DNA from: Scenedesmus sp. ARA3
Lineage: Eukaryota > Chlorophyta > Chlorophyceae > Sphaeropleales > Scenedesmaceae
Assembly (NCBI GenBank): GCA_004335835.1
Contig: RWJK01001438.1
Coordinates: 33,220 to 97,219, forward strand
DNA length: 64,000 bases
Direction: 5' to 3'
Shown: positions 23,128 through 46,500 of the stretch, piece after piece
Layout: each line of letters starts with the position of its first letter
Numbering within the stretch: the stretch's first letter is position 1
The notes under the pieces: model-generated
What the model saw: only the letters and a program-made list of their open reading frames with translations
Database searches by the model: none
What the model was told of the DNA's origin: nothing
Made by a program: the position numbers and the translations under genes

Positions 23128-26100
23128 ATGGACCAAGACACGCACAGGAGTGCTGCTCAGCTGCTTGCTCGCGTGGAGGAGCTCTTTGCTGACAGTGAAT
23201 CCATCGTTGTTGCTGCCTTCGAGGTAGGCCCGTGCAGCAGCAGGCAGCATACAGCGGCGTAGTGCCTAATTGAGCAGTTGATGCTCAGTATGCAGGTGCA
23301 CTGCCACTGCCATTGCCTGGGCCCTGTGCAGCACTATGCAGCTATGCAGCATTCAACACCTGCAACATGTCATTGAGGAGTAGGCGTATGGTGTGTTGCT
23401 GCATTACATCAGCGGGTGAAGTGCTCCGAGCTGCTGTCTTGCCTGTGGGCCAGATGGGTGCTAGGCTTTCAAAGCCTTAATCACCTATGCAATGGCTGCA
23501 GCATGCCAAGCAGATGGGTCAAATCGGCAATGGCTGCAGCATGCCAAGCATCTGAATCACACATCAGCGCCGCATAGTGAGCATGCCCTGAGCTGCAACT
23601 AGTCCAACATGCCAACTGGCTATTGTTGTATTTGGCGGGGCGTGAACCATGCTGTCCTGCAGGCTCACAAGGTGTCCCACTCATCGGAGTCAACAGGCGC
23701 ACAGCTGCTCAAAGCACTTGGCGGCAAGGTGAGCAGAAAGAGCGCCGCAGCAGGCAGCTGGTCATATGTCCAACAGTGCAATTAGCCTGCCACACACGGA
23801 GGAGAGGAGAGAGAGAGCCGCAGCTGGCAGCAGGTTGATAGCTGCGGACTGCCACCAGCAGACTGCATAGCATGTAGTGCGCACCAAAGTGCAGCAGCAG
23901 CAGGTGTGGCTGGTGACGGGCGCAGTGCAGCTGACACAGCCTGCAGTGTTCAGTGTGCCTATCAGCATATGCAATGGCATATGCAATGCCTGAGTTATTT
24001 GGCCTTGCCGCTGCTGCGGGCGTTTGCGGGCGAGACGCTGCGCAGCGTGGTGCTCATGTTCACCGTGAAGCGCAGCCTGGCTGACCGCGGCTTCCAGGCG
24101 GCACTGCACTTGAACATGCTGCAAGTATTTGTGCCACGCAGGTTGCGCTGCTGCTGCTGCTGCTGCTGCGGGTGTTTTGCACATGACGCGCTGCGCTTCA
24201 AGGTGCTGAATACCATGCTGCTGCTGCTGCTGCTGTTGCAGGCCTTTGCGCGCGAAGCCCTGCGCAGCGTGGTGCTCATGTTCACAGTGAAGCGCAGCCT
24301 GGCAGACAGGGGCTTCCAGGCGGCGCTGCACTTTGCGCGGCCGCTGCTGCTGGGCCAGGGCGGCACCCGCAGCAGCAGCGATGACGGCGGCGGCAACCCA
24401 CGCCTCGAGGTGCGTTCACGTGACAATTGCTTTGCGCAGTGGACGTGCACAGCACATAACGCAGTCGAGGACGTTCTGCTTGTGCAGACGCGCTAGTGAT
24501 AGGCCGCAGTGTTCTGCGATGGTCAGTGGATTGGTGTGCGTAGTACTGGCTGCACTTTGCGCGGCCGCTGCTGCTGGGCCAGGGCGGCACCCGCAGCAGC
24601 AGCGATGATGGAGGGGGCAACCCACGGCTCGAGGTGCGCTGGCTATAACATGAGTGATGCAACATACGGTTGTGCAGTGATTTGTGCAGCAAGTTGGTTT
24701 GAAGGACGTGCATCAGGCGCGCACCTTGTGGCAGACAGGGGTACGTCACGGTCACCTTGTCGCTTCATTCAATGTAGCAAGATGACATGTACACGTGCTG
24801 CTTTCGTGCCTGTGCCTGCACCCCTCTGCAGCTGCGCAAGAGCTACCCCCTGAAGAGCCTGCACGTCATGCGCCTCAGCTCCCCGGGCAGAGCCTCAGGC
24901 AGGAGTGAGGCAGCGCTGATGGGCCAGGGGGCAGGCGATGCAGCGCTGCGGCGGCAGCAGGTGGGAGGGTGAAAATTTTGTAATGCTGTCGTAACGCGGC
25001 TGACAAGACTATCGCTGCGGCCACTGGACACATGGGGCCATGTGTCCTTGACCCTGTTGTGGGGCATAGGGGTTGCCGTGTGAGGGCTGTTGATGTTATC
25101 TGTGCTCCAGGCAGGGCCGCAGATAGGTCGGAGGCGGCCCTGCTGGGCCAAGTGGCAGGCGGAGATGCAGCGCTGCGACGGCAGGTGGGGTGATCTGGAA
25201 CTACAGTTGATGTGGGTTTCGAATGACGTGTCTGCAGGCTGGCAGCAGGTTGAGGTGTATGTTCAATAGATGTCTGAACATTTGCTAATGCAGCTCGTCA
25301 CCAGTTGGTTGTGTCTCCTGCTGCTGCTGCTGCTGGCTCAGGTGCTGGAGCTGCGATGCGCCAGCCACCATGCGCAGCCGGAGCACCGTGCACAGTACCT
25401 GCTGCCTGACGGCCACACTGCCATGTTCTTCGCCAGCCTGGCGGTGCAGCTGCTGCGGTACGCACCACATGACATGTGTTATGTATCAGGTGTTATTGTG
25501 TTATGTTAGGGTGATGCTGCGTGTTGCTGCAGCGTGCAGACTGTCGTTCAAACATTCCTGCTGTTGTGTTGTGGTGTCAGTCACATGTCGACATGTGTTG
25601 CTGCTGCTGCTGCTGCTGCTGCCGTGCAGGCACCAGGATGCTGTGCTGCCCAGCATCTCTGGTGTGACCTTGGAGCGGGAGGTTGCCCGGTGGGCCAGCG
25701 ACAACACTCCCATGTATTCACACACATATTGTTCCTGCCTCCGCTGCTGCTGCTGCTGCCCCTGCTGCTGCTGCTGCTGCTGCTGCTGCAGGCACCAGGA
25801 TGCTGTGCTGCCGAGCATTGCTGGTGTGACGATGGAGCGGCTGGATGCCTGGTGGGCCAGCCACAAGGAGGAGGTCACTGCAGGCCTGTCATCTTTTGCG
25901 CTGGAGGTGGTCACTCCGGGAGCTATACTGGTGCGTGTTTTGGGGGAAAGAGAGCCTACAAAGGCAGCGCGAGGTGTGACAGGGGGAGGAACAGCAGAAA
26001 ACAGAGTGTCTGATTGGGATGGAGCTGCAGCACGTGTGTGTCTTTTGAGTGTGGCATGTTTGGCATTGCGCGCCTGGTGGGCCAGCCACAAGGAGGAGGT

Positions 26101-29100
26101 CACTGCGGGGCTGTCATCGTTTGCGCTTGAAGTTGTGACGCCAGGCGCAATATTGGTGAGGCAGGGTTGTAGCGGTTGTGTGATTGGGGTGTGAGGGAGA
26201 GGGGAAGGCAGAAAGGGACGGGAGAAATGTGTGTGCTTGTTGAGCGGGGTTCCATTGCTTGTGTGTGTTGGGTGTGCCATGTTTGGCTTGGTGGGCCAGC
26301 CACAAGGAGGAAGTCACCGCAGGGCTGTCCTAATCTGGAAGTTGTGACGCCGGCGCAGTACTGGTGCGCTGCTGCTGCTGGGAAGAGAAGGGCAGAGAGG
26401 GGCAGTGGCACGGAGGGATTGGGAGACGGGACCTGATGTACTGATTCGCGCCAAGTGTATGATATGTATCCACGTGCAATGTGTGCAAACTCTGCAACTT
26501 GTCAATATCATCTATATACAATACATTCATGCTTTCCACAGGTGGGGCGCTCGCCAGAGAACTCATCTGCTGCTGATTCGCTGATGCGCACCAAGCATAC
26601 ACACCACCACATTTGTGCATGCCCAAGCAAGCAAAAACCCTAACACTCTTTCTGTTTGCCGCAGGTTGGGCGCTCGCCGGAGGACTCATCTGCTGCTGAT
26701 GTGCTGATGTCAGCCAAGGAGGCGGCTGACCTCAATCTCTCCATGCGTGCCCCTGCTTGCTGCTGTGTCTTACGCTTGACGCAGGTGGGGCGCTCGCCCG
26801 AGGACAGCAGTGCTGCTGACGTGCTGATGTCAGCCAAGGAGGCGGCTGACCTCACGGAGCTGCTGGCCAGCTTCGACATGGGTCTGGGGGAGGCAGATGC
26901 CTTCGCAGCAGCGCTGCAGGTGGGGTTTTTTTTGGGGTTTTCTGGGGACAATTTAGCAGGGTGACCAGGGTTCATCACGCTTCAGGGCACAGCCGCAGCA
27001 GCAGCAGCAGCGTTTGGAGGCCTGCGCAGCAGCAATTGCATGATGGCGGGGTTGTTGCTGGGCAGGGCAGGGCAGGCAGACCTCACGGAGCTGCTGGCCA
27101 GCTTCGACATGGGCCTGGGAGATGCGGACGCTTTTGCGGCAGCACTGCAGGTGGGCGTTTTGGTTTTGGCCAGCCAAGCGGTTGTGACCCTGTTGTGCGG
27201 CAGATATGGCACAAGACACCATGTTTGTTACCCTCACCACGGAGTGAGGCGGCCGGGCGTCGAACCCGGGTCTTCAGGTTGGATGGCCGATGCCAGCTGT
27301 GACATGGGCCTGGGGGAGGCGGACGCCTTCGCAGCAGCGCTGCAAGTATGTGCTGGTTGTTATCATATTGTGCCGTGATGCTCTGCACTGTGACTGTTTA
27401 GGCGTGCATGCAGCAGGCCCTGCAGTGCTGCAGGCTCGTGCATGGCCTGCTGGCGCAGCTTCTGTCTGGGTGGTTGCCTTTGTGAAACTGCTGCAGGCGG
27501 CGGCTGCCGAGCTTTTCACTATGCCGTGTCTGTTACTTCCTTGCTCCCACAGTGTCTTATCGCTTCATCCTGCATGTTACCCTGCTCGCTGAATTGTCTG
27601 TTTCCATATTGCAGGAAGAGGCAGCCGCGCTGGAGGCAGCCAACGTGGCTGCGCTGCTGGGCTGTGGCCCTGCTGTGGAGGGCGTGCTGGGGCAGCTGCG
27701 GCTGTGCTGTTGTTGTTTGTGCCTGACTGTTGCCTTGGCAATCGTGTGCAGGTACAAGGGGCTTCTTTTAAGCAGGGCAGCGCTGGGCCTGACAGCGCTG
27801 ATGGCCAGCTTATATGTGTTCAACTGTCTTGCTGTTTCGCCCCTGCAGGAGGAGGCTGCTGCGCTGGAGGCTGCCAACGTGGCTGCGCTGCTGGGCTGTG
27901 GGCCTGCTGTGGAGGCCGTGCTGGGGCAGCTGCGGCTGTGCTGTCCTTCTGTTCTCTGTTGTTTGTGCCTGACTGTTGCCTTGGCAATGGTCTGCAGGTA
28001 CATGGGGCTTGTGCAGCGTCTTGGTCGCCTTCATCCAGCATCACTTTGCCCTTCCAAATGTCTGCTGCCAATTTGCAGGAGGAGGCCGCTGCGCTGGAGG
28101 CGGCCAATGTTGCTGCGCTGCTGGGCTGCGGGCCTGCTGTTGAGGGCGTGCTGGGGCAGCTGCGGCACACACAGGCGGTGCTTGACGACCTGGACCAGAG
28201 CTTGCAGGTGTGCTTTGTTGATTATGTCACGCTGGTTATGTTGTTTACTGCTGTTTACTGCTGTTTACTGGGCATGAGCTGGGCGTGATCCAAGGTCGGC
28301 TGCAGGCGGGTGCTTGACGACCTGGACCAGAGCCTGCAGGTGTGTAGAAGTGTGTGCATGTGTGTGGGGGGGNNNNNNNNNNNNNNNNNNNNNNNNNNNN
28401 NNNNNNNNNNNNNNNNNNNNNNNNNNNNNNNNNNNNNNNNNNNNNAGGGGGAGGCCGCCGGCTGTGCTTGATGACCTGGACCAGAGGCTGCAGGGGTGAT
28501 GCTGAGGCTGAAATTGTGGTTGTGTGCTTTTGACAGTTGATCTTGAACCGGCTGCCAGGTCCATGATTCAAAGCTGCGCCACATGCGCGATGGCATAGCA
28601 GCAAATGAGCCAGCAACAGCAGCTGGTTCATGTGCTGCAGATCAACCCTGGCCATGCTTTGTGCTGCTGCAGGTGTTTGACTTCAAGCTGCGCCACATGC
28701 GTGACGACATAGCCGCCATCAAGGCCAGCAACAACAGCCTGGAGCACTCAATGAACCTGACTTTCAGAAAAGCCTACTGCCTTGCACCTCACCTGCCGCA
28801 GGTCATTGACTAAAGCGCAACAAGTAATTACCAGTCCGTTGCCATAAATCATCCAATGCCCATTCTTTTGCTGCTTGCTGTGCTGCAGGTGTTTGACTTT
28901 AAGCTGCGCCACATGCGTGATGACATAGCAGCCATAGAGGCCAGCAACAACAGCCTGGAGCGCCAGGCGCGCCACAACACGGCACTCAGCAGGCTGCTGG
29001 AGCAGCTGCTGGGGGGCCTGGGCGTTGACAGGCACCTGACAGCTGCCCTGGAAGCACCAGACCTGAAGCTCGACAGGTGCGGGGTTCAGATCTTTTGTAT

Positions 29101-29837
29101 CATGTAGGGTTTTGGGGCAGAGCTTCAAGTGTTTAGAGATGCTGCTGCGGCTGCTACAGCAGCTGCTGGGGGGCCTGGGCATCGACAGGAGCCTGACAGA
29201 TACTCTGGAGGCGCCAGACCTCAAGCTCAACAGGTGGGCGGAAAGTTTTGACGCCAGGGCTTTGCCAGGGCTGGAGGTTTTGGGGCTATAGCTATGCCGC
29301 CTTGGGCAGGGAGACACGACGGCTGAGATCAAGCGGATGCCGTGCTTCGTGGTGTCTGCTGCAGGCTCTGTAGGCTCTTATTACTGCTGCTGCTGCTGTT
29401 GCTGCTGCCGCAGGCTTGCCCCTGCTGTGTCTGCCGCCTGGCAGCTGCATGCCAAGCGCACCTGGCTGGCAGGGGGTGCCTCTGACAGCCTCAACCCGCT
29501 GCTGACTCAGATGCGGGTGGTCAAGGAGGCACAGGCGCGCCTGCACCAGCTGGCCTCACGGTGAGCTGCGGTTTGGTTTTGATGCTTAAATAGATTCCAT
29601 GGCTTGATGCTGGGCCTTTGCAGGGAACTAGTTGTCAGGTTGTGGCGGTTCCATCTGCGCCAGCTTGTGCTGCGTGGAGTGGCTTAAATGGCACACTGGA
29701 GCATTCAGTAGCCTGTCATGTAACATACCATGTTGCAAGCAGGCGCAAGCTGCAGAGGTCATCGCTTGATGTGCCTCAGCGCCCCTGGATCTTCTGCACG
29801 TGGCGTGTCGACTCTTCAACAATCTGACTCAGCTTGC

Positions 29838-29885
<48 letters not shown>

Positions 29886-30659
29886 ACAGCTTTGTGGGTG
29901 CTGCTGTGGGCTTCATCACCGGGCTGGTGGGGCAGCTCATGGGAGAGGCCATGGAGGCCGGTGCCAGGCATGCTGACAGTGAGTGGCCAAAATGTATTTT
30001 TATTTGCCTAAAGTTCTTAGTCAATGGCAATCATCTAGGTACACTGTTTGCAGCTCATGGGCGAGGCCATGGAGGCCGGTGCCAGGCACAGCGACAGTGA
30101 GTGATAAAAGATGAAGTTGTGTTTTGCTATCCGGCTTCATTCGCTGTCAAGTGGTTGCATTGTTTGCAGCTCATGGGAGAGGCCATGGAGGCTGGTGCCA
30201 GGCACAGCGACAGTGAGTGACCGAAGATAAAGCTTGTGTTTTGCTGTCCGGCTTCATTCGCTGTCAAGAGGGTGCACTGTTTGCAGCTCATGGGCGAGCC
30301 ATGAAGGGCGGTGCCAGGCATGCTGACAGTGAGTCGCGCACATGATGTGCTTTGTTTGCTTTCATGTTTTAATTGCAATCAAGTGGGTGCACTGTCTGCA
30401 GCTCATGGGCGAGGCCATGGAGGGCGGCAGCAGGCATGCTGACAGTGAGCGGCGGTGCGCGGAAGCTCTACCAAAGGTTGCTCAATTTGTTATCTCGTTG
30501 CTGTGCTACATACTGTCAGCATGCATGTGTATGCACCACAAGCAGCTGTTAACCTTCCACCAAGGGGTCCCCCAATTGGTGCTCTGTTTTGCAGTCTGTC
30601 CCTGTTGCTCGTTGACAATGCATGTCTGATGCTGTTTTGCTGAATGCGCTCTGCTGCTG

Positions 30660-30692
<33 letters not shown>

Positions 30693-33600
30693 GCCACCAG
30701 GGTGGAGCAAGGTGTCCCCGCCGGACCGCGCTAAGCTGCACGGCGTCATGCTGCGTGTGAGGCCGCTGCTGCAAGTGCTGGCGGTGCTGGAGGCACGCGC
30801 ACTGCAGCAGCTGCAGCAGCAGGTGCGTGAGGTTGAGTGCTGCTTGTAGCCGGCAATTCACATAGCAGTAGCTGCAGAAGCAGGCGCGGCTGGGTGACAC
30901 AGCACAGCAGTTGTAGTGTGTGGCTCACTCAGCAGATGCTGGTAGGCTCTGCTTGATGGCATCGCCTATGACAGCCTGAGCAGCAAGATAATTGCAGCCG
31001 GAGATTGCTGCTGTTGATGGAGGTGTTGGAGGGCACGCTGATTCTGGCTGCGGCTGCTGCTGCTGCTGCTGCTGCCAGATGTTTGTTGACGTGAATGCGC
31101 TGCTGCGTGTATGCTGTCCTTACGTGTTGATGCCGCACTGCTGCTGCTGCTGCCATTGCCAGGTGTCTGTTGAGGTGAATGCGTTGCTGCGGCGCGAGCT
31201 GCATGCGGCGGCCGGCGAGCTGCCGCACTGCTGTCCCACTGCCGCACTGCTGCTGCTGCGCTGCTGCTGCCTTGCTGCTGCTGCTGCTGCTGCCGCCAGG
31301 TGTCTGTGGAGGTGAATGCGTTGCTGCGGCGAGAGCTGCGTGCGGCGGCCGGTGAGCTGCGGCGCGGCGCGTCTGCAGAGCTTGCAGCCAGCGGGCAGGC
31401 TGGCGAGGGGGACTACAACCTGTGCAAGGAGAAGGGAGGCAGCAGCAGCAGCAGCAGTGCGGCACAGCCCAGGTGAGCCTTTGTGTCTGTTTTTGATGTG
31501 ATTTGCATGTTGGGTTTCAAAGAGTGTGTACCAAATACTATAAGTCAGGTGGAGTGTGATTCATTGGCTGCACGAGTCTTGCGTGCATGGTCGCATACGT
31601 CTCTGTTTTTATGTGGTGTATGTGTAAGGATTGCGTGCAATCAAAGAAGTGGTTCCTGCATTCCACAGGCAAATGGCTTTCTATCCAGCCTAATGACAAC
31701 ATACGCGTGAGCTGTGGCTGCAAGCTGCTGGCCATTGAAAGTGTGAGCCGGGAGGAATAACAGTTTGTTACTTTTCTCCCAGTGCCGCGCACTGCTGCCG
31801 GTGCTGCATCCGTGTGTGGGAGTGCTTCCAGCAATGCATCGGCAAAATCCATCGATAAGACCTGTATAATATCATATGGTTGGGCTGTGGCTGTAAGCTG
31901 GTGGCCATCGAAAATGTGAGCAGGGAGTAGTAGCAGTTTATAACTTTTTTCCCAGTGCCGCGCACTGCTGCCGCTGCTGTATCCGTGTGTGGGAATGTTC
32001 CGGCAATGCAATGGCAAATAATTGTTCCGGCAATATACACTGGCGGCGGTGTGCATCATTCAAGGACGGGCTGAACATACAAATATTTGCCTAACATTCT
32101 TTGCTGCCTGTCATGCGCTGCTCCTGTGCATTTTATTGCATGCCTCTTCTACGGCAGCGGCCCTGGCAGCGCACAACACCCAGTGCTGCATGACAACAAA
32201 CCTGCAACTGTAAAATGAACACTTTAAAGACGAAACACAACCCTCGACGCTGCCTGCGATGTGCTGCTGCTGCTGCTGCTGCTGCTGCTGTGATGCGCTG
32301 CAGGCAGCGGGTGGCTCGCCTCTCCTATGGCAGCGGTGGCAGCGGCCCCGGCAGTGACAGCGTGAGCGAGTGGCCCGCAGACCCAACCGAGCTGTCATCA
32401 GGAGCAGCGGGAGCCAGCGCAGCAAAGCGGCAGGCCTTCCTGGATGGTGAGCAGGACCAAATTTGACCATGTTTGACCGTGTTGGCGGCAACTTTGTATT
32501 TGACCACCTTTTTGTTTCCCTTTTTGACTGCGTTTGACCGTGTTTGACTGCCTTCTGCTGCGTTCCTGCAAGCACCGTGCCTGGAGTGCCGGTGCAAGGG
32601 GCGTTGAGCTTGCTGATGGGCGGTGTCCCGCCAATAATTGGGGCAACTTTGTATCTGACAAGATTATACTTTGTTTGACTGTATTTGACCATCTTTGGCC
32701 GCCTGTTGCTGCATTCCTGCAGGCAATGTGCCTGGCCTGCCACTGCATGAGGCATGGAGCCTGCTGCTGGGCGGCTTCCTGCCATTCTGGCGGCAACTTT
32801 GTACTTGACCATGTCAATTATGTTTGACCATGTTTGACTGTGTTTGACCGTCTTTGACCGCCTGTTGCTGTATTCCTGCAGGCAGTGTGCCTGGCTTGCC
32901 GCTGCACGAGGCGTGGAGCCTGCTGCTGGGCGGCTTCCTGCCATTCCTGGCTGCAGAGGCAGCCTTCTACGCGGACCTGCTGCTGCTGTACAGGTGCGGC
33001 AGCTGCAGTGGCATAGCAGCAGCAGTAATCAGACGTAGCAGCCGCCGCAGCATCAGCAGCAGCCATAGTAGCAGAGGCAGCCTTCTACGCTTACCTGCTG
33101 CTGCTGTTCAGGTGAGGCAGCGCTTGGTCAAACGCCAGGAGCAGATTGCATGGAGCAGCTGCTGGTTAGCAGCCTTTGTGTTTGACCTGTTGGCGACATC
33201 ATCCCGCAACAGGCCTAGTTTTTGCTGCTGCTGACAGGCGTTGTACAGGCAGGGATGTTCTTCAGGAAGACAGCCGCAACACAGCGGCGACTGGTGTCAG
33301 CATGCAGCCAGTGCATGCGATGCCTGGCTTCCTGCAACCGTACAGTAGTGGTTGTCACATGCAGCTGCAAGCTGCGCAGACATCAGCGAGCTGTTGGCCA
33401 ACTTGCACACACCACCTCATGCTTGACCTGCCGCTGCGGCATTGTGCTGCTTTGCAGAGGCGACGAAGAGCGGCTAAGGGATGGCCCCGACAGCAGCGCA
33501 GCGGATGCAAAGCAGCAGCGGCAGGGTCAGGCAGGCGTTACTGTGGTCATCAGCCGCCCCCCAGGGTGCCCGCTGACGTATGCTGGCAGCCAGGCAGTGG

Positions 33601-36600
33601 AGGGCATGTTGGCGGGGCTGGAGGGCGACTTTGTGGTGAGGTGTCACGGTGCTGGGTCAGATGTTATTTTATGTGATGTTATATCATGTGGGATCGTTCA
33701 AACAGTCGGCAGCCAGGCAAGGGCAGGCAAGCCGGCAGGACTGGAGGGATTTTGTGGTGAGATCTTACACTGCGCCACATCTGGCACCCACGTAACACTG
33801 ACTCAGCCATGCGTCGCTGTGTTGTATTCGTGCTTGCTCGCCTCCTCCAGGACGTCTCACTCATCCCGTCGTGACTCACAAGATCACTCTTCTTGTCCGC
33901 CTGCCTTCACTCTCCTCACCCAGGCCCTCGCAGATTTGGGCTCCCGCTCGCACCAGGTGCTGCTGCTGCCGCTGCTGGCCACTGCCCATCACTATTTTTG
34001 TCCGCCCGCCCTCACTCTTTCACGCAGGCCTTATCAGACCTGGCCTCCCGCTGGCACCAGGTGCTGCTGCTGCCGCTGCTTGCCACTGCACTGGCCTGGC
34101 AGCAGCACCTGGCAGCAGCGCCTGGCAGCTTCTGCGCCCCTCCGGTTCAGCCGTGCATCACTGTGGCGTATTCAGGTTCCCCTGTCCTCCTTCAACACGT
34201 CTCACTCTTCTGTTCACGACTCACATGGTCACTCTTCTTGTCCATCTGCCCTCACTCTTTCTCGCAGGCCCTGTCAGACCTGGCCTCCCGCTCGCACCAG
34301 GTGCTGCTGCTGCCGCTGCTTGCCACTGCACTGGCCTGGCAGCAGCGCCTGGCAGCACAGCCGGCTGCTGCTCCGCTTGCAGCGCTGCTGGAGTCACTGG
34401 CTGGCAAGCTGCGGGGGGGCTGGGGCAGCTTCTGTGCTGGGCAGGTGGCAGCGGTGGAGCAGTACGACAGCCGGAGCAAGATGGGCCTGCAGCAAGGTGA
34501 GCTAGCTAGCAGTAGCACTACAGATAGAGAGGGGCGTGTGCGTACAGTTGGGTGTGTGCTTGTGCGTCCGCTGGTGTGTGCGCGTTTGCTGTGCAAAGTT
34601 TGATTATGTTTGTCAATGGGCAGTTTCTGTGCTGGGCAGGTGGCGGCTGTGGAGCAGTACGACAGCAGGAGCAAGATGGGCCTGCAGCAAGGTGAGCTAG
34701 CTAGCAATAGCACAACAGATAGAGAGGGGCGTGTGCGTACAGTTGGGTGTGTTTGTTGGAGTTTCTGCTGTTGTGTGTGTGTCCGCTTGTGTGCATGTTT
34801 GTTTAACAGGTGCTGATGCTGGCAGCACTGCTGGAGTCACTGGCTGGCAAGCTAAGGGGGGCCTGGGGCAGCTTCTGTGCTGGGCAGGTGGCAGCGGTGG
34901 AGCAGTATGACAGCAAGGTGAGCTATAGAGAGAGTGGCGCGTGTGTGTGCAGCTGTGTGTGTTTGTGCGTCCGCTGCTGTGTGTGTGTTTCTTTTAGAGA
35001 GTTTAATGATGTTGTCAATGGGCAGCTTCTGTGTGGGGCAGGTGGCAGCTGTTGTACAGTATGACGGCAGGAGCAAGCAAGATGGGCCTGCAGCAAAGGT
35101 GGGTGGGTGCAGGACGGATGGGGCGTTGGACGACAGCTAGCATTGCTTGCAGCTGCAGTGTGCATGGCTGTTCACACTGCACTGGCCCGGCAGCAGCGCC
35201 TGGCAGCACAGCCGGCTGCTGCTCCGCTTGCAGCGCTGCTGGAGTCACTGGCTGGCAAGCTGCGGGGGGGCTGGGGCAGCTTCTGTGCTGGGCAGGTGGC
35301 AGCGGTGGAGCAGTATGACAGCAGGAGCAAGATGGGCCTGCAGCAAAGTGAGCCACAGATGGGGAGGGACATGTCATGCAGTTGTGTGTGTGCTGTTGTG
35401 TGTTTGTGTGTGTAAGCGTGTGTGTACGTTGGTTTTGAACAGTTTGCTGATGCTTGTCAATAGGCAGCTTCTGTTCGCGGCAGGTGGTAGCTGTTGTACA
35501 GTATGACAGCAGGAGCAAGATGGGCCTGCAGCAAGGTAGGACAGCTGTTTGAAGAGAGCGCGGCCTGGGCCCTCAGTCAGCTAGGCGAACAGCTGTGGAT
35601 GTGCTTGCCGTTTATGCGTGTATATGCGTGTGTGGGCATAGTTTGTATGTCTGCTGCACTGCGTTGTCTGACCACACATACACACTGTTTCCGGTTGCCC
35701 TGCTGCTGCTGCTGCTGCTGCAGGCATCAAGCACCTGCATGTGCTGCCCTTCATCAGCCAGTTCTGCCTCATGGTGCATGACCCACTGCTGCTGCTGCTG
35801 CTGCTGCTGCAGGCATCAAGCACCTGCACGTGCTGCCTTTCATCAGCCAGTCCTGCCTCATGGTGGATGACCCGCTGCTGCTGCTGCTGCTGCTGCCGCA
35901 GGCATCAAGCACCTGCATGTGCTGCCTTTTATCAGCCAGTTCTGCCTCATGGTGCATGACCTGGAGGTGGCTCTGGTGGAGGGCGCGGCAGCAGCAGCAG
36001 CAGTGGCAGCAGCAGCACCTTTACAACAGCAGCAGCAGCAGCAAACAGCAGGAGATGATGGTGAGGAGGGGCAGCAGTCGCTGGAGCAGGCGGCAGCGGC
36101 TGATGCTGCACGCAGCGTGCGCGCAGGTGAGGGGAGCACGCGGTGTAAGCAACTGAGTGATGCTGTCTTTGTAGATCCAGTTGGCATTGTAGCAGTTTAA
36201 GTAGAGCAACTGCCTGCTGAGTTCACAGACGCTGCGCCCGAACTCCTGTTGCATATTGGCAGCTGCTGACGCGCTGTATGGCAAGCGGTGCCCGCGGCTG
36301 CTGTCTGTACAGCTGCTCCGACTCCGCGCTTCATGCTCACTGCCTGCCTCCTTGCAACAAACCGCTGCAGCTGCCGACGCGCTGTATGACGAGCTGTGCC
36401 CCCGGCTGCTGTCGCGGTTGGAGCGGCTGGCGTCTTCGGATGCCAAGTACGGGGAGCGCTGCCGGCTGGAGAACTACGGCTACCTTGGAGAGGCGCTGCG
36501 GGGGCTGGCACAGAAGCTTCCGGCACTGCAGCAACACTGGCAGGTACGAGTTGAAGCTTGCGCCTCACCTGAGCTTCAGCGCTGCGTTGTGTGCAGCCAG

Positions 36601-38157
36601 AGGGTTTTTGGGGATTGTATGCCGTTGGTGCAGATTACATCTGTCGCCCCACAGCTGTTCTGCTGTCTGCCTGTGTGCAGGTTGCTGAGGCGCGGCGCGA
36701 GGCTGCGCTGTCTGGCGGCACACTAGCGCATCCCATAGCACGTGCACACGCTTGCACTTACGCTGCCGCCTTGATGCTTGCCCGACTGTCTGCCCTTGTC
36801 TATGCATGTACATCTGAGCCGCTGCCTTGCTTCTGCCTTTTGGCCTTGTCGCCTCACTGCTGCTGACCATTCAGGTTGCTGAGGCGCGGCGTGAGGCTGC
36901 GCTGTCCGGCTATGTGGCTGAGCAGCTGGCGTACAGCAAGCTGTGGAAGCTGCTGGAGTTTGGCGACAAGCTGGATGGCCTGCTCAAGGTGGGGTGACAG
37001 GGCCTGATACAACCATTTTGGTTTGGGGCCCACCACAACTGTGAACCCTTGCGGTGACATTTGCTGGAGCACTGCCAACACTGCCACTGAAAAGGTCTGA
37101 GCAGACTAGGCGCAACAACCTCTGCGCTACCTGCCTGGGCCGCTGTCGCCGCCCTTACAGAAACCTTTGGTGCTGCCTGTTGCAGGTGGTGTCGCCCCCC
37201 GAAGTGTCATTCCAGAAGGACTGCTCACCCGCTGAGGTGCGCAGCCTGATGCGGTCCACCATGGATGGCACAGACAAGAAACTTGAAGCGCTGGCAGGCC
37301 GTGTGCGCAAGCATTTAGGCGGCGGCGCGCTGTTCAACGTGGCTTGGGCGGCTGTCAAAGAGGCACTGCTTGCACGGTGAGCGGGTGTATTGTATGTTGT
37401 TGTGCGGCATCATGCGGCACATTGCGAGCTTGTGATTTGAGAATAGCGGTTGCGGCACATGGCGGGAAGTTGACTTGAGACAAGCAGCGACAAGAAGCTG
37501 GAAGCACTTGCAGGCCGTGAGCGCAAGCATCTGGGGGTGAGGCGCTGTTCAATGTGGCCTGGGCCACAATGAAGGAGGCGCTGCTGGCACGATGAGTGGG
37601 TTAGGTTGTGTGTTGTGTATCAAAGTGCCACATTGCGGGGTGTTGCGCGAGCAGTTGTGTCTGTGAAATTAAAGTTGACTGCTGGCGGTTGCCTGCTTGC
37701 ATCTTGACTTGCACAGTTCATGCTGGCGTGCATGGCTCTTATGCTGCTGTTCGTGCTGTTGAGACTGCCAATATGACATTATTCAAGTTTCCTGTCTTCC
37801 TGCAGGTACGAGCACCTGGAGTGGCTGCTGGAGCAGTGCTACCCCACCACATGGTCCTGCAGCTGATGCTGCTGTTTGTGCTGTTGAGGTTCCCATATAT
37901 AAAATTATTCAAGTTTTCCGTCTTCCTGCAGGTACGAGCACCTGGAGTGGCTGGTGGAGCAATGCTGCCCCACCACGTGGTCCTGTAGCTGATGCTGCTG
38001 TGCATGGCTTGTTGATTGCAAACACGACTGTGTTGAATGCATGCCTTGCAGGTACGAGCACCTGGAGTGGCTGCTGGAGCAGTGCTACCCCACCACGCCG
38101 CTGCGGCCCTCACCCGAGGAGCTGCGCGAGCTGTTCAGGGCCACCAGCGCGGGCTGA
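23128..38157 (+). CDS. SEC3: Exocyst complex component SEC3 (EXOC1)
   Basis: SEC3 is the plasma-membrane landmark subunit of the exocyst, tethering secretory vesicles before fusion. Twenty-two exons: 23128-23223, 23663-23728, 24242-24409, 24832-24960, 25342-25457, 25792-25930, 26785-26919, 28079-28207, 28889-29076, 29414-29560, 29890-29978, 30701-30822, 31300-31472, 32304-32446, 32882-32993, 33458-33635, 34268-34496, 35902-36126, 36371-36543, 36875-36988, 37186-37376, 38052-38157. All phases match; 3,168 nt, about 1,055 residues (plant SEC3 about 890; excess is mostly Ala/Gln/Ser inserts). Landmarks collinear with plant SEC3 are DMGLGEADAF, LEAANVAALL, FDFKLRHMRDDIAAIEASNN, YGERCRLENYGYL and the C-terminal YEHLEWLLEQCYP. 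The N-terminal part should form the lipid-binding PH-like domain, but similarity there is weak. Most exons have partial tandem copies; the set above is the only full-length, in-frame set I found. Confidence 0.93.
24010..24633 (+). repeat. SEC3 exon 3 stutter array
   Basis: The full exon is 24242-24409. A 5' copy at 24010-24110 keeps the TTTGCG..CTGCGCAGCG start but has lost its acceptor. A 3' copy at 24550-24633 (TTTGCGCGGCCGCTGCTGCT to CTCGAG) keeps a GTGCGC donor. Confidence 0.93.
24880..25184 (+). repeat. SEC3 exon 4 stutter (3' copy)
   Basis: The last part of exon 4 (24832-24960) recurs at 25111-25184, with a new acceptor-like TGTGCTCCAG before it and a GTGGGG donor after it. Confidence 0.9.
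25630..26363 (+). repeat. SEC3 exon 6 array with possible cassette exon
   Basis: The full exon 25792-25930 is preceded by 25630-25713, which shares HQDAVLPSI but ends in WASDNTP before a GTATTC donor. It is followed by 3' copies at 26072-26155 (donor GTGAGG) and 26287-26363 (internally damaged, donor GTGCGC). The upstream copy is 84 nt and phase-compatible, so it could be included without a frameshift. Confidence 0.9.
26542..27345 (+). repeat. SEC3 exon 7 array, five copies
   Basis: Two 5' copies (26542-26597, 26665-26740) each keep a CACAG or CGCAG acceptor. The full exon is 26785-26919. Two 3' copies (27075-27150, 27299-27345) keep GTGGGC and GTATGT donors. Confidence 0.93.
27253..27269 (-). 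other. tRNA-like T-arm in SEC3 intron
   Basis: On the minus strand CCGGG-TTCGACG-CCCGG makes a perfect 5-bp stem with a seven-base TTCGANN-type loop, followed by CCGCCTCA like an acceptor 3' strand. I find no matching 5' acceptor half upstream, so it is a fragment (for instance from a tRNA-derived element) or chance. Confidence 0.25.
27615..28492 (+). repeat. SEC3 exon 8 array, five copies
   Basis: 5' copies at 27615-27709 and 27849-27941 keep acceptors and the EEAAALEAANVAALLG code. The full exon is 28079-28207. 3' copies are 28309-28339 (donor kept) and 28451-28492 (donor GG/GGTGAT, weakened). An N gap separates the last two. Confidence 0.92.
28373..28445. other. Assembly gap, 73 N
   Basis: A run of N lies between two 3' copies of SEC3 exon 8, next to a GTGTGTGGGG tract. 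The array may be longer or shorter than shown. Confidence 1.
28563..29233 (+). repeat. SEC3 exon 9 array, four copies
   Basis: 5' copies are at 28563-28610 and 28673-28755, the second with an intact CTGCTGCAG acceptor. The full exon is 28889-29076. A 3' copy at about 29133-29233 covers the LLEQLLGGLG region and keeps a GTGGGC donor. Confidence 0.92.
29935..30444 (+). repeat. SEC3 exon 11 array of 42-43-nt mini-exons
   Basis: The last 43-44 nt of exon 11 (LMGEAMEAGARHAD) recur four times: 30054-30096, 30170-30212, 30287-30328 and 30402-30444. Every copy has its own TTTGCAG or TCTGCAG acceptor and a GTGAG donor, with intron-like spacers of about 73 bases. Confidence 0.95.
31079..31472 (+). repeat. 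SEC3 exon 13 array (5' copies)
   Basis: Two 5' copies (31079-31111 and 31163-31225), each after a CCAG acceptor, precede the full exon 31300-31472. All encode V-V/E-VNALLR. CTG runs lie before each acceptor. Confidence 0.9.
32571..33111 (+). repeat. SEC3 exon 15 array
   Basis: 5' copies at 32571-32630 (acceptor mutated to GCAAG) and 32723-32787 (acceptor intact) precede the full exon 32882-32993. A 3' copy at 33071-33111 keeps CAGAGGCAGCCTTCTACGC and a GTGAGG donor. Spacers repeat GTTTGACCGTGTTTGAC-like motifs. Confidence 0.92.
33590..33756 (+). repeat. SEC3 exon 16 stutter (3' copy)
   Basis: The end of exon 16 (GGCAGCCAGGCA to TTTGTG/GTGAG) recurs at 33708-33756 with the donor retained. 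Confidence 0.85.
33924..35535 (+). repeat. SEC3 exon 17 array, eight copies
   Basis: Two 5' copies (33924-33990, 34028-34150) with CCCAG or CGCAG acceptors precede the full exon 34268-34496. Five 3' copies follow: 34618-34691, 34821-34917, 35022-35098, 35175-35347 and 35461-35535, each ending in a GTGAG, GTGGG or GTAGG donor. The intron start GAGCTAGCTAGCA is duplicated with them, so the unit spans exon end, donor and intron. Confidence 0.95.
35724..35965 (+). repeat. SEC3 exon 18 array, 89-bp period
   Basis: Copies start at 35724, 35813 and 35902, exactly 89 bases apart. Each consists of a CTG run, an acceptor and GCATCAAGCACCTGCA onwards to ATGACC. Only the third continues into the rest of the exon and a donor. 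Confidence 0.95.
36263..36543 (+). repeat. SEC3 exon 19 stutter (5' copy)
   Basis: 36263-36306 repeats the start of exon 19 (36371-36543) after its own TTGGCAG acceptor and ends next to a GTACAG donor-like site. Confidence 0.88.
36681..36988 (+). repeat. SEC3 exon 20 stutter (5' copy)
   Basis: 36681-36720 repeats the first 40 nt of exon 20 (36875-36988) after a GTGTGCAG acceptor. Confidence 0.9.
37270..37591 (+). repeat. SEC3 exon 21 stutter (3' copy)
   Basis: 37486-37591 repeats the exon 21 end (GACAAGAAGCTGGAAGC to GGCACG), but the donor is changed from GGTGAG to GATGAG and a 1-2 nt indel breaks the frame. Confidence 0.88.
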
Positions 38158-38374
38158 TACAGGCGCAGCCATCATGTTGCGTGGTGTCGTGTGACATCAC
38201 CGCACATCGCATACCAACACTCACCACAGGCGTGCGAACCCTGAATACGAGCCGCCGAAAGGCTGTTGTAACGTTCAGATTTGTCCTTGGGTTTGATGCT
38301 ATGAGGAGCTGGGGGCCTTGCCAGGCTTGCCCGAGGAGCTGTGGGAGCTGTTCAGGGCCACCAGCGCGGGATGA
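37806..38374 (+). repeat. SEC3 exon 22 array
   Basis: 5' copies start at 37806 and 37932, each after TTCCTGCAG, and match about 45 nt of the final exon (38052-38157). A 3' copy of the exon end, including a TGA stop, lies at 38326-38374 in the 3' flank. Confidence 0.93.
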
Positions 38375-40480: not shown

Positions 40481-43475
40481 CATCGTCAACACCATGTTAC
40501 CAGTGTAGCCATAGAAGCACGGCTCAACATAGCACCCCAGCGTTCCGTTATCCCAATACGTTCTGACAATATCTCGCAGGGACACTTAGTAGCCAAGTCA
40601 CTTCGTTCAGCCTGCTTACATGCAACATGCACTGTTAATGACAGTGAGTGTGTGCTGGGACCGCGATAACAGCTAGCGCGTGCTGATCTCACCTGTGTGC
40701 GCGTGTTGGCCAGCTGGAAGTCTGTGCGGAAGGCGTTGATGGCCTGAGACAGGATCTGCAGAGGAGCAGGGGCAGGACGCAGTGGTGTGATCAGCGGGTG
40801 CCCGGCTTACCAGTGGCAGCAAGACCAGCGGCGCCCTAGCTAGTGGCAGTTTAACCTGTAGGAACGTGACGAGGCGTGCCTGGTGCAGAGCATGTGGTTG
40901 CCGCCAACCAAGCAGTTTTGCTGTCTACTGTAGCCCCCTGCGAGCAGACATGCACTTGGCCGGCTAGCTCGCATCATGGTGGATATTCCAGGTGGCAACC
41001 TGACTGACGATGCGGCAGCTGCCAACCTGCCTCCAGCACTATAAAACGGTGTTTGGACGCTCACCATGTCCTTGGAGACGAGCCCTGCTGTGATCCTGCT
41101 GCAACCAGCCCCAAGCCCAACTCATGCAGAGTCACACACTGCATTGAGAAGGCTGATGCCTGCCTTGTTGCGCAGTGCTCACCGTGTCCTTGGTGACGAG
41201 CCCTGCTGCAATCCTGGAGATGCCCTGCTCGATGCGGCCCCGCAGGTCGGGCTTCCACAGGTTGTCCAGGCCCATGCGCCTGCAGGGTATGACACGACAA
41301 AACGATGATCTCAACCATGGTGCTGATTTGCATCGTACGTCAACCATGCTGCTGCCTCCTTGCAACGAAACATATGTGCTGAGCATGAGCTGCTCATGTA
41401 CTGCATCAATAGAGTGCACCCAACAGAAGCAGCGGCGTAGCATCCTGACGATGGTTAGACAGCATAACTTACACACACAGGCACCTCACTGCACGCGTGC
41501 CTGGCACATGCTTGCGCAGTCCCACCTGTAGGAGCTGATGAGGCTCTCGCCCAGGTTTGTAGGCCCAAAAACCCAAAAATGCACAACAGCAGACGCAGAA
41601 CGGAGAAAGGAGCTTGCTGTTTTGACCCTGTTCCCTGCTCCACCGCCCGCTCACTTGCCCGCTCACTTTCCCAGCCTCACCTGTAGGAGCTGATGAGGCT
41701 CTCCCCAAGGTTGGTGGGCCAGAAGGTCAGCGCCGCGTCCTTCTCAGCATAGCCGCGCTCAATCTGCTTCTGGATGTGCTCTGAGAGAAACGAAACAGCA
41801 CAGCACACGCAGCAGCATGCGGCAGTGAGCAGCAGAACAGCAGTCATGCAGATGAGCAGGCAGTTGCACAGTGACAGAAGCAACAGACAGCCAATTGGTG
41901 GGCATACCTTGTGGCGCAGTGCATGCTGCTACCACTAGCGGCAAGAAGGCTGTGGCAATGCAGCGCTGCAGGAGAATGACAGCAGCTGGCTGCGCAGCTT
42001 ACTCTGCTGTCAAACAGCACACAACACAGAGCAGAAACAGTGGGCTGCCAGTCGACAGGAAATGCAGTGCACAATGCAGAGCCAGTGGCAATGCCGTAGC
42101 CCGCTATGCGATGTACACGAGACAAAAGCGCAAGACCTTGAACGAGCAGCAGCTGCGGCAGACACCCGCGCTGCACCTGCTACAGTCGCATCAGTGCCGA
42201 TGCCGTAGCGCTCCATGGCAGCGATCAAGTCCCTCTCCGCCAGTCGCGGGGGCGGCTGCGTGGCGCCTTGGCGCAGCGCCAGCTCGCTCGGCAGGAATGT
42301 TTGGCCCTCCACAAAGTGTGGCAAGTGTGCGTTGCCGCCCCAGGTGGCCCAAGTGAACACATCCAGCCAGTTGCGCTCCGTGATCATCAGGCCTGCGGAC
42401 GCAGCAGGGTTTGTGTATGGTTTGGTGTTATAGGTGCACAACAAAAGCCCCAGGGCAACACATCTAGCAGCCAGTTGCACCGTGTGATGAAGCCTGCAGG
42501 CAGTGCCAACGGCAGCAGCAATGGCATCATTAGCAGCAGCATTTTGGGACCCAGGTGGCACAGGTGTACAAGTCCAGCGATTTGCGGTCCATAATCATCA
42601 GGCCTGCAGGCGCAGCGAGATGTGCGCATACGGTGCAAGGTAAGAAGTGCAAATGAAGCCTTAGGTGGCCAAGTGAAAGGCGGCGGCTGCGTGGCGCCTT
42701 GGCGCAGCGCCAGCTCACTCGGCAGGAAGGTCTGGCCCTCCACAAAGTGTGGCAGGTGTGCAATTACGCCCCATGTGGCCCATGTGAACACGTCCAGCCA
42801 GTTGCGCTCCGTGATCATCAGGCCTGCGGGCACATGGTGTGTGTGTGTGGTGTGGTGATATAAGCGCAGAACGCAAGCCTCACTGAAACACATGCAATGC
42901 ATTGCTGCCGCATGTGGCCCATGTGAACACGTCCAGCCAGTTGCGCTCCGTGATCATCAGGCCTGCGGGCGCAGCAGGAAGTGTGTGTGGTGTAATGGTA
43001 TAAGCGCAGAACACAAGCCTCACTGAAACACATGCAGTGCGTTGCCGCCCCAGGTAGCCCAGGTGTAAACATCTAGCCAGTTGCGCTCCGTGATCATCAG
43101 GCCTGCGGGCAACGCGCGATGCGGAGACAGAGTCGAGGAAATGCAAGCATGCTATCGACACACCCTTTTGGCTGGTGTGGTGAAAGGCGTGCACAACACA
43201 AGCCCCAATGAAACACATGCAGCCAATTGCGCTTGGTGTTTATTAGGCGCGAGAGCGGCGGAGGTTGCAGCAGCAATGGCATCAGCAGCAGGAGCAGCAA
43301 CAACGGCATCAGCATCACGCATGCGAAGCTCAAGCTTAGGCCCACCTGTCGTTCTGAAGGCCTCTCCCGCAATATCGATGGTCACGGTGGTCTCGAAGGC
43401 CACTGCGTCCTTGGAGCAGGAGGCCAGGAAGTGGCGCACCACAAACTCATACAGCAGGCGCTTGTCTGCAGGCGG

Positions 43476-43511
<36 letters not shown>

Positions 43512-46500
43512 GCAGCAGCACATGTGTTGATAGAAGGAGGCCAGGAAGTGCCGCACCGCAAGTTCATGCATACAATCGCATGCAGGTGCATCTCCAGCTG
43601 CCATGATGTGTACACACGCCCATGCAGGCTGCAGACACACCATGTGGCCAGTCATTTGAGTTCTCGCCCGCGCTGTAGCGCGTGGGGTGGATGGGCGGGT
43701 GCGCATGCAAGTGCACGCAGAATCACCATCATGTAGGAACACACAGTACTGTGCAGGCTGCAGGCTCACCATGTGACCAGTCGTTCTCGCCTGCGCTGTA
43801 GCGCGTGGGGTGGATGGGCGGATGCGCCTTGTCATCGTGGCCCCCTGGCCGGGGCGGCTTCCACATGCTGCCTGCCAGGATGGCTGCTGCGTGAGGGCCC
43901 CAACGGCCATCACCAGTGTGCTCTGATACGATCGCCTGCAGTGGTGGGTGGGGTGGAGTGGGGTGGGGTGGGGAAGTGGCAGCAGTGTGAGGGCCCAGCG
44001 CCCTTGTGTGTTTGCACAAATCGATGGCCTGCAATAGTGTGTGGCTGGGTGAGGAAGCAGCAGCAATGTCAGGCACCAGCGGTTGGTGTGCATTGACACA
44101 ATAGCAGTGGGCAACTTCCTCCCCTGGTGGCTTCACTGCTAATTTTTCCCCCAAACCCTCACCGCAGGTCCATGCATGAAACATGGCTCCTGCTTCACTC
44201 AGCTACGTTGCATGCTGAGCAGCCCCACTGTCCCCACCGCGGCCTCTTTCCTTGCCTCACCCGCAGGTCCATGCCCGGGTCGTATGCGTCCGTCTCCTTG
44301 CGCCTGGCAAACTGCTGCTGTTGCGACTTGCCGCTGCCCCATTCCACCCCTGCTGCCCTCACCCGCAGGTCCATATCAATTCGCTACGTCAAAATGTGCA
44401 GCTATTAAGCCCGCCNNNNNNNNNNNNNNNNNNNNNNNNNNNNNNNNNNNNNNNNNNNNNNNNNNNNNNNNNNNNNNNNNNNNNNNNNNNNNNNNNNNNN
44501 NNNNNNNNNNNNNNNNNNNNNNNNNNNNNNNNNNNNNNNNNNNNNNNNNNNNNNNNNNNNNNNNNNNNNNNNNNNNNNNNNNNNNNNNNNNNNNNNNNNN
44601 NNNNNNNNNNTGCCGGGGTCGTATGCGTCCGTCTCCGTGCGCGGGTAGCTGATCCAGCCGCCCTGGTACAGCTCCTCAGCCAGCTTCATGATGCGCTCAC
44701 CTGGCCACAGCAGCAGCAGCAGCAGTGGTGGCAGCAGCAGCAGCAGCAGCGGCGGGGGAGGCAGCAACGGCAGTGGCAGGGCGCATTCGGTGAGCTCTGC
44801 ATGGTGGTGGGAGGATTTGGGTGACAACGAGCACATCTACATGTCATCACGTGGTGTGTTGATTACTTCACGTTGCGAGGCGCACCATCTGCCGCTACTA
44901 CTGCAAAAGCGCGTGCCTGCCTGTAAGGTGCTTGCGGCACCGCGCAGCTGGTTCAAAGTGATGCTCTTCAGCAGCAGCATACGACAGGGCACGCTGCGAG
45001 TGTGGGCCCACATACAGTCAAACCCAACAATGGTTGTTTTGCAGGCAAAGCCAACAGGCAAAGCCAAAAGGCGACTTGCGCACCAGATATGCGCAGGATG
45101 CCGCTGGCAGACTTGCACATCTCCAGTGTGGCCAGCGGCACAGGGGCACGCTTGTAGGTGGCACGCCCATGCACCTGCAGGTTGCAGCAGCAGTGCATGC
45201 GGTACATCTCTCATGCCGCCGGCTGCTGCTGTGATTGACAGAGGGCACCAAAATACACTAGTTATAATATGCAGGCCCAGCCGCCGGCAGCATATGATGA
45301 ACAGGGGCGCCTGCAGCGCTGGAGTGCCGTGTCTGGCATGACAACTGCTTGGCAACAAACTGCAAGAAGTGCGCGACTTGCCACAAGTGCAGCATGAATG
45401 GTGCCAGACAGAGCATAGATTGCATCACACTGCTTCATTCTGTCCATAGCTCATGCAGCGCACAGCATCAGCCAGTGTGCTTCAAATGCCAGTACTGATT
45501 CAGTGTGCATGCTGCCGCACTTGCCTGCATGACTGTTGCTGTCGGCTCCTCTGCACACTGCTCATACAGCAGTGCTGCCACCCCCTGGTCAAACAGCCTG
45601 TCTCTAGCCCATTTGAAGTCGCAGTGCAGCTGTTGCCCTGGCTTTCGCTGCGGTTGGCCCTGCTGCTGCTGCTGTCCATCATTTGCTGCTGCTGCTGGGT
45701 CGGGCCTGTAGCTGACAGCTATGTACCAGAATGGCTCTGGGATGTGCGACTGGATCTCCCTGCAGGGCCAGCACAGCAAGCAGCACAGCAGTTGACAGTA
45801 GGGGTCTGTCGAATACAGCAGGGCACTGCGGTATAAAAGCACAACAGCATAATTGACGGTTTCGGTGCTTGCAAGCGCATCATCACAGGTGCAATTGGCA
45901 GTACGCAGAGCAGTGATGGGGTTTCCGGGTGTCGATGTGGCTGCTGTCCGCCGGCCGCGCACCATGATCAAAAACATTGCAGGGATACAGGGGTGAGCAC
46001 TCATGGCAGAAACTGCATGCACAGGTGACACCAGGCTCACCATGCGCGCTGCACGATGATGCCCAGCGTGGGGAACTGGCAGGGCCCGTAGCTGAGGATG
46101 AGCCGCTCAGCCTCCACGCCGCCACCCGCCCAGTCAAACTTGTCCTGCAGGCAATGCTCACAACCTATGAGATTGTGGCAGGCTTGGGTGTAACCAGAGA
46201 CCGCCAGCCAGTACCTATGCCCCCCAAGAAGCGTGAGAAGGACCTACAACATGACAAACTTGTCCTGCAGGCAGCGTGCGCATCAAACAGTCCAAGCAAC
46301 ACCAAGCACTTCCTGGTTGTTAACTGGCGCCCAGCCCTGCTGAGTTACCTGCAGTAGAAGCGTCTGGAAGCGCGTGAAGCTTGCGCCTATGCGCAGGTCA
46401 ATCTCCTGCCTTGCGTCAACAGCTGCTGCGTCTGCCGCGTTGGGTGCCACCAGCTGCTGCAGCGCCCGCTGCAGCTCGCGCGGAATGAGGGCACTGAAGC

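Follow-up and report, generated by a model that had tools for sequence, protein, structure and literature searches.

Sixteen of the 22 exons of the SEC3 gene in a 64,000-nt stretch of the genome of the green alga Scenedesmus sp. ARA3 are accompanied by diverged partial copies of their own ends, and these copies follow a strict rule of position that recurs in three other genes of the same genome. The stretch (contig RWJK01001438.1 of assembly GCA_004335835.1, positions 33,220 to 97,219 of the forward strand; hereafter the window) belongs to an assembly of 87.3 Mb in 1,567 contigs. Our verdict is that the exon-end copies are real and recurrent in this genome and that they are a variant within intragenic tandem duplication, new in form. 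They look like a route of intron growth and an origin of spare splice sites.

Results

Exon-end copies in the SEC3 gene

SEC3 encodes a subunit of the exocyst. The coding sequence of 3,168 nt is distributed over 22 exons (Table 1), it is open over 1,055 residues, and all introns are GT-AG introns. The product matches the Pfam families Sec3_CC (E 4.2e-15) and Sec3_C-term (E 1.3e-10). The nearest protein is P0001 of Tetradesmus obliquus (OEZ86_009092), which is 97% identical and is encoded on a contig of 5.02 Mb. We regard the alga as a close relative of T. obliquus within Tetradesmus, perhaps as that species itself.

Copies were searched with the exons as queries on the plus strand of positions 22500-39000 (E ≤ 1e-3, microsatellites soft-masked), and matches within the exon itself were dropped. 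This yielded 42 diverged partial copies at exons 3, 4, 6, 7, 8, 9, 11, 13, and 15-22, with one to seven copies per exon. An earlier note on this DNA had named the same 16 exons and the same range of copy numbers within 23128..38374, and had described a complete exon set in frame over 1,055 residues; all of this was recovered. The positions of the copies were completely uniform. All 20 copies that contain the 5′ end of an exon are located upstream of the complete exon, and all 18 copies that contain the 3′ end are located downstream of it. The other four are internal exon pieces, all of them downstream. The search found no complete copy and no copy on the wrong side. The 3′ copy of exon 22 lies past the stop codon and not in an intron; it is harmless there and fits the same side rule.

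Local direct repeats make up 48% of 23128-38374 (53 direct pairs, E ≤ 1e-6, microsatellites masked), and the number of inverted pairs is zero. Because of this coverage by masked repeats in a single orientation, the SEC3 repeats are neither chance matches nor low-complexity sequence.

Two transcript-derived SEC3 proteins of relatives, P0003 and P0006, end in unrelated tails, as judged by eye. P0003 stops where exon 20 joins exon 21 and P0006 shortly past the junction of exon 14, as if an intron had been retained or mis-spliced.

The same arrangement in other genes

The earlier note had implied that the pattern is unique to SEC3, which did not hold. The neighbouring gene on the minus strand, which, judging from motifs, we tentatively take to encode DNA topoisomerase III (TOP3), obeys the same rule in the part that was read: six of six 5′ partial copies are upstream and four of four 3′ partial copies downstream, and five 5′ copies precede one and the same exon. 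These single-gene counts refer to eight exons in a frame broken by an N gap, with the first two exons out of frame, so that the synonymous and non-synonymous counts of exon 2 are invalid; six exons entered the pooled counts below.

A search of the genome with the chaperonin family PF00118 matched eleven contigs, and ten loci were compared. Direct repeats cover 55, 37, 40, 40, 41, 25, 17, 12, 9, and 0% of them, i.e., they are present in nine of the ten, and inverted pairs are absent from all ten. Two of the loci, L021 with CCT1 and L022 with CCT5, had been picked since the family search hinted at repeats; the other eight represent the remaining contigs with more than two PF00118 matches, and contig C1192 with two matches was left out. 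When modelled with the T. obliquus proteins, CCT1 has 36 copies at 9 of 11 exons (its last exon, at which the locus ends, being omitted) and CCT5 has 27 copies at 9 of 13 exons. For the counts of CCT1, CCT5, and the pool, hits that fell within another true exon or lay more than 2,500 bp away were dropped as well. In the pooled count, a 45-nt mini-exon of the CCT5 protein P0133 was removed from the exon list; with it listed, five more matches are classified as containing both ends.

In SEC3, TOP3, CCT1, and CCT5 taken together, 57 of 57 copies with the 5′ end are upstream and 47 of 47 with the 3′ end are downstream; 10 internal pieces are all downstream, and none of the 114 copies is complete. 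The two kinds occur together in 17 introns, and in every one of these each 3′ copy comes before the first 5′ copy. For comparison, 20 stretches at fixed places were chosen, of which 16 existed (L005-L020). The 15 that were scored have a direct-repeat cover of 0-24% and one inverted pair; L009 was too short to score, and L020 consists of N to 58%. In summary, SEC3 is not peculiar but a pronounced example of a general pattern in this genome.

At L022:8042-8765, six copies of the CCT5 exon 11 end form a 108-bp array together with the original. Two of the pairs compared there have spacers with 100% identity and are therefore young. A mobile element or introner was rejected for exon 9 of SEC3, the one exon checked, the listed matches of which all lie at its own locus, at no fewer than four places on one contig. 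One scan of IMG/VR with the CCT1 protein P0013 retrieved no related DNA.

Spacing, breakpoints, and intron length

The spacing of nearest repeats, pooled over the window and the loci, has a peak at 100-140 bp and a shoulder at 220-260 bp. Repeat pairs that span an exon-intron junction account for 37 of 49 pairs in SEC3 and 31 of 44 in CCT1, compared with 36% and 25% for randomly placed units. Duplications of a whole exon were not found among these 93 pairs, compared with 13-14% for random units, as would be expected if they were selected against. The pairs within an array are not independent of one another. Among 48 introns, those with more copies tend to be longer (rho 0.81). Clear homology between spacers is seen in 10 of 49 copy pairs, and there the exon parts (90.0% identity) and the spacers (88.8%) have diverged equally, as for plain tandem arrays. 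Complementary breakpoints, by which a 5′ and a 3′ half would add up to one split exon, are not claimed, because the P value of 0.0005 against a uniform expectation rose to 0.18 against permutation.

Proposed intron growth by duplication of exon-intron junctions

The side rule, the uniform direct orientation, the absence of whole-exon copies, the recurrence in four genes, and the correlation with intron length are all directly visible, whereas the duplications and when they occurred, the part played by selection and splicing, and the growth of introns are inferred. Introns probably gain length at their ends when units that span a junction are duplicated locally in direct orientation, whereby half-copies would be spliced out and duplicates of whole exons would be selected against. 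The duplicated unit would be about 100-250 bp long and would cross the junction. If it ran from intron into exon, it would leave an upstream copy with an acceptor and the 5′ part of the exon, and if it ran from exon into intron, it would leave a downstream copy with the 3′ part and a donor; in both cases the intact exon would be kept. A half-exon with a single splice site would not be recognized as an exon and would be removed with the intron, whereas a second whole exon in the message would be purged by selection. Repeated events could build short arrays across many genes. The earlier note had stressed that one complete exon is always retained, and so it is; the geometry of junction-spanning duplication plus selection would suffice for this.

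Coding-like divergence and splice sites of the copies

Several observations weigh against intron growth as the whole account. The differences between copies and exons in the four genes are 5.4, 4.7, and 18.1% at codon positions 1, 2, and 3. The changed codons comprise 375 synonymous and 207 non-synonymous changes with 1 stop among 582, while neutral change would lead to a non-synonymous to synonymous ratio of 2.6-2.8, so that the copies have too few non-synonymous changes to have been neutral since birth. The acceptor tracts of 30 copies in which identity to the tract of the exon itself does not exceed 50% have a score of 1.82, close to the 2.20 of true acceptors and far from the -2.94 of random intronic CAG (P 1.6e-10). 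In 39 of 49 copy-copy pairs the spacers are weakly or not homologous at an identity of about 90% in the exon parts, a combination that simple tandem duplication with uniform decay would not produce. A 68-nt exon copy in CCT1 is 100% identical, and its homology ends about 5 nt past the donor. Four of the 93 pairs (one in SEC3, three in CCT1) aligned wholly within an exon, no fewer than for random units, which selection alone would not predict. In addition, long introns give copies more room, and thus the correlation with intron length supports growth and does not prove it.

Pure neutral decay of tandem copies as the whole story was rejected because the excess at third positions persists after correction for the mutation spectrum of the locus. 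Codons changed in one copy only include 39 synonymous and 31 non-synonymous cases in SEC3 and 39 and 41 in CCT1; the changes specific to the exon are 15 and 0 in SEC3 and 10 and 1 in CCT1. The copies are heterogeneous, ranging from 12 synonymous and 0 non-synonymous to 0 and 6 (dispersion P<0.0002). The copies are not independent of each other, and P values for pooled copies are too small.

A gapped test with 22 copies with tracts no longer like that of the exon gave a pyrimidine share of 0.68. Over the four genes, the AG was kept in 48 of 57 copies and the GT in 40 of 46. The spare splice sites that the earlier note had proposed for SEC3 do exist, as the extrapolated positions still read AG in 18 of 20 cases and GT in 15 of 21, while alternative use of these sites would preserve the frame in 17 of 41 cases and leave it open as well in 6 of the 41. 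Mini-exons showed no excess of the correct frame: the best-scoring one kept the reading frame in 20 of the 46 5′ copies (test for a share above one third, P 0.10) and in 7 of the 40 3′ copies (P 0.99). In-place coding use of the copies is thus not supported in general. Recursive splice points were also rejected, as 5′ copies accompany 11 of 16 exons that start with GT and 18 of 32 others, which is no clear preference. The coding and splicing signatures of the half-exons, which are retained although most spacers are near saturation, lie outside the account of intron growth.

Matching peptide repeats in T. obliquus proteins

P0001, the T. obliquus SEC3 protein, contains AVEQYDSRSKMGLQQ twice, and positions 35303-35347 of the window, within a copy of exon 17, encode exactly AVEQYDSRSKMGLQQ, with an AG in front of it and a GT after it. 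P0013 and P0015, both OEZ86_010546 (CCT1), differ by a second VLESGSVVP, which is the end of CCT1 exon 10. This peptide occurs once in P0014 and twice in P0015 (contig of 4.41 Mb), and 3′ copies of exon 10 are present downstream of it in L021. P0013 differs from the CCT1 of this genome at 1 of 463 residues. The third case is P0133, a T. obliquus CCT5 from UniRef with 15 residues more than P0135 and P0136. Spliced alignment placed the insert at a copy of exon 11 (L022:8474-8518); its DNMVR fits the neighbouring copy at L022:8366 better. P0133 and the CCT5 of this genome have two differences in 551 residues, both within the insert, so that P0133 possibly derives from the genome studied here and would not be independent evidence. 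The repeats in P0001 and P0015, which come from another, multi-megabase assembly, speak against an artefact of the present one. As judged from these database proteins, certain copies seem to have turned into short in-frame exons in T. obliquus.

In P0016, the CCT1 of Scenedesmus sp. NREL 46B-D3, the unrelated residues CNMCTRNLVWLSAVALYRMRPQA stand in place of the exon 4 end, as seen by eye; this is probably a gene-prediction error.

Discussion

Alternative explanations

The copies might be an artefact of the assembly, if the alga were a heterozygous diploid with two strongly diverged haplotypes, pieces of which had been joined end to end so that the copies were the exon ends of the other allele. 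Relatives lend this some plausibility: Scenedesmus obliquus DOE0152z was assembled to 208 Mb, about twice the size of UTEX 393 and of the expectation (PMC5552973, PMC5255914), and NREL 46B-D3 is called likely diploid, with the haplotypes as separate contigs, in the accessible parts of its descriptions (PMC7590803, PMC7955037). Two functional alleles would likewise be expected to differ mostly at synonymous sites, to have good splice sites, and to have introns that do not align. Both N runs of more than one base in the window (28373-28445, 44416-44610) lie among copies and are flanked by similar sequence, and with P0133 perhaps from this genome only two independent proteins are left. On the other hand, some exon parts exist in three or more versions that have all diverged from one another (SEC3 exons 8 and 17; CCT1 exons 3, 4, and 10), and two diverged copies of SEC3 exon 8 share their break and the following bases. 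When 79 amino acid differences were polarized with five homologues, 64 were assigned to the copy and 8 to the exon (7 were undecided), and P0001 has the residue of the exon at 76 of these 79 sites, whereas two functional alleles should be symmetric. Furthermore, P0001 and P0015 hold matching repeats at SEC3 exon 17 and CCT1 exon 10 on contigs of 4-5 Mb. With three or more diverged versions and such one-sided changes, a pure interleaving of two haplotypes was rejected as the whole story, and an artefact of this kind is improbable. Selection might instead have kept the half-exons because they function where they lie, whether as alternative splice sites, as recursive splice points, or as mini-exons. 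The acceptor scores, also where the tract has diverged, the pyrimidine share, the synonymous bias with its single stop, and the T. obliquus proteins of SEC3, CCT1, and CCT5 with copy-matching peptides would agree with such a splicing device. It is nevertheless unlikely, given the frames of the mini-exons and alternative sites described above, the loss of AG in 9 of 57 and of GT in 6 of 46 copies, and the 10 pairs with homologous spacers, in which the exon parts are no better conserved than the spacers. Its extension to the whole genome, in which half-exons at each intron end would be kept in frame as a reserve of acceptors or donors during turnover of the spacers and would supply proteins with new in-frame mini-exons, is decidedly improbable.

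Our preferred guess for the coding-like divergence, held tentatively and with more doubt than belief, is that the arrays are old and real and that the exon part and the acceptor were refreshed from diverged functional alleles, through unequal exchange or ectopic gene conversion, while the spacers drifted to saturation. This would account for near-saturated spacers beside exon parts of about 90% identity, for the synonymous differences, for the spread from copy to copy, and for the good acceptors, and a high allelic divergence is plausible for these algae. However, a large synonymous divergence between alleles would be required, yet the CCT1 protein P0013 is nearly identical to that of this genome, and conversion from the resident exon alone would presumably raise the non-synonymous share and not lower it. 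It is very improbable that exon pieces were copied up to the splice site by RNA-templated or exon-targeted repair and not by tandem duplication of a junction unit. In several copies with 95-100% identity, homology does end no more than about 5 nt from the splice site, but other pairs reach far into the intron (SEC3 exons 15, 17, and 11; CCT5 exon 11), and the strict upstream and downstream geometry would not be predicted.

Comparison with known systems

Mutually exclusive or otherwise duplicated whole exons also consist of exon-derived copies that adjoin exons. They were rejected because no complete copy exists among the 114 of the four genes and no whole-exon pair among the 93 of the two genes.

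Boundary internal tandem repeats in human segmental duplications are likewise direct repeat units at exon-intron boundaries. In the portions of that work that could be consulted, they alter splicing and create or extend introns, and some copies are retained in the message (PMC2812944). Their units are on average about 30 bp long and occur in about 7% of the genes in segmental duplications, whereas here the spacing is 100-140 bp and most exons of single housekeeping genes are affected; unlike them, the copies described here are always half-exons and have a coding-like divergence. Intron gain by tandem genomic duplication with AGGT (PMC3443670) also turns exon sequence into intron by local duplication. 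There, as far as the accessible text describes it, the unit lies within one exon and the new intron splits this exon, whereas here an existing junction would be duplicated and the old intron would grow. As a general account it was rejected, because an internal AGGT is common to copy and exon in only 24 of 114 copies. Tandem repeats in Chlamydomonas and Volvox (PMC3887541) are likewise found in green algae and are dense at intron ends. They are short intronic motifs such as GT/AC dinucleotides, and the accessible part of that report does not mention exon copies. Literature searches, for which subscription papers were mostly outside reach, did not find the exon-end-copy pattern described in Scenedesmaceae.

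Intron lengthening and the origin of spare splice sites usually have to be deduced from old, faded traces, whereas here the traces are dense, legible, and ordered. A single alga that can be cultured thus allows tests of how introns grow and how mini-exons arise. That supposedly useless pieces diverge like coding sequence is a puzzle of its own. In practical terms, gene predictors for this group of algae may insert half-exons into proteins.

Features of the window

Table 1. Coordinates of SEC3, its exons and exon-end copies, and the neighbouring gene
Feature	Position	Strand	Basis or remark
SEC3 gene (exocyst subunit)	23128..38157	+	22 exons; in frame, GT-AG, Pfam, 97% to T. obliquus P0001
SEC3 exons 1-11	23128-23223, 23663-23728, 24242-24409, 24832-24960, 25342-25457, 25792-25930, 26785-26919, 28079-28207, 28889-29076, 29414-29560, 29890-29978	+	
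SEC3 exons 12-22	30701-30822, 31300-31472, 32304-32446, 32882-32993, 33458-33635, 34268-34496, 35902-36126, 36371-36543, 36875-36988, 37186-37376, 38052-38157	+	
Exon 3 5′ partial copy, AG lost	24020..24111	+	exon query
Exon 3 3′ partial copy, only 4 synonymous differences	24549..24633	+	exon query
Exon 4 3′ partial copy	25107..25184	+	exon query
Exon 6 5′ partial copy	25630..25704	+	exon query
Exon 6 3′ partial copy, codon differences 12 synonymous / 0 non-synonymous	26072..26155	+	exon query
Exon 6 truncated 3′-side copy	26286..26329	+	exon query
Exon 7 5′ partial copy, outer	26542..26586	+	exon query
Exon 7 5′ partial copy, inner	26665..26734	+	exon query
Exon 7 3′ partial copy	27075..27150	+	exon query
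Exon 7 3′ partial copy, outer	27292..27344	+	exon query
Exon 8 5′ partial copy, outer	27615..27702	+	exon query
Exon 8 5′ partial copy, inner	27849..27936	+	exon query
Exon 8 3′ partial copy	28303..28339	+	exon query
Exon 8 3′ partial copy, outer, adjoins N gap	28460..28493	+	exon query
Exon 9 5′ partial copy, outer	28571..28623	+	exon query
Exon 9 5′ partial copy, inner	28673..28745	+	exon query
Exon 9 3′ partial copy	29149..29233	+	exon query
Exon 11 3′-side copies (four), array of about 116 bp	30050..30444 (30050-30088, 30166-30204, 30283-30328, 30398-30444)	+	exon query; Tandem Repeats Finder (TRF) period 116
Exon 13 5′ partial copy, outer	31080..31107	+	exon query
Exon 13 5′ partial copy, inner	31163..31226	+	exon query
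Exon 15 5′ partial copy, outer	32577..32633	+	exon query
Exon 15 5′ partial copy, inner	32723..32795	+	exon query
Exon 15 3′ partial copy	33071..33111	+	exon query
Exon 16 3′ partial copy	33708..33756	+	exon query
Exon 17 5′ partial copy, outer	33924..33985	+	exon query
Exon 17 5′ partial copy, inner	34028..34137	+	exon query
Exon 17 3′ partial copy	34618..34691	+	exon query
Exon 17 internal/3′-side copy	34818..34914	+	exon query
Exon 17 3′ partial copy	35020..35096	+	exon query
Exon 17 long 3′ partial copy, 98%	35175..35346	+	exon query
Exon 17 3′ partial copy	35463..35535	+	exon query
Exon 18 5′ partial copies (two), 89-bp array	35724..35872 (35724-35783, 35813-35872)	+	exon query; TRF
Exon 19 5′ partial copy	36263..36305	+	exon query
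Exon 20 5′ partial copy	36681..36716	+	exon query
Exon 21 3′ partial copy, GT lost	37489..37591	+	exon query
Exon 22 5′ partial copy, 100%	37806..37850	+	exon query
Exon 22 5′ partial copy	37932..37977	+	exon query
Exon 22 3′ partial copy with stop codon, 3′ flank	38330..38374	+	exon query
Neighbouring gene, part	40693..45173	-	partial copies at 44272-44303, 43641-43704, 43532-43570, 43204-43248, 43037-43102, 42898-42962, 42679-42823, 42550-42603, 41526-41565, 41067-41098

Scans of the 64-kb window for tRNAs and Rfam families gave no matches. The segments 52992-53759 and 62702-63661, about 10 kb apart, share dispersed pieces with 80-96% identity and perhaps represent a duplicated gene; 62691-63203 is locally repeated. 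Minisatellites are present at 9981-10226 (32 bp), 17806-17951 (28 bp, perfect, 5.2 copies), and 59264-59478 (41 bp).

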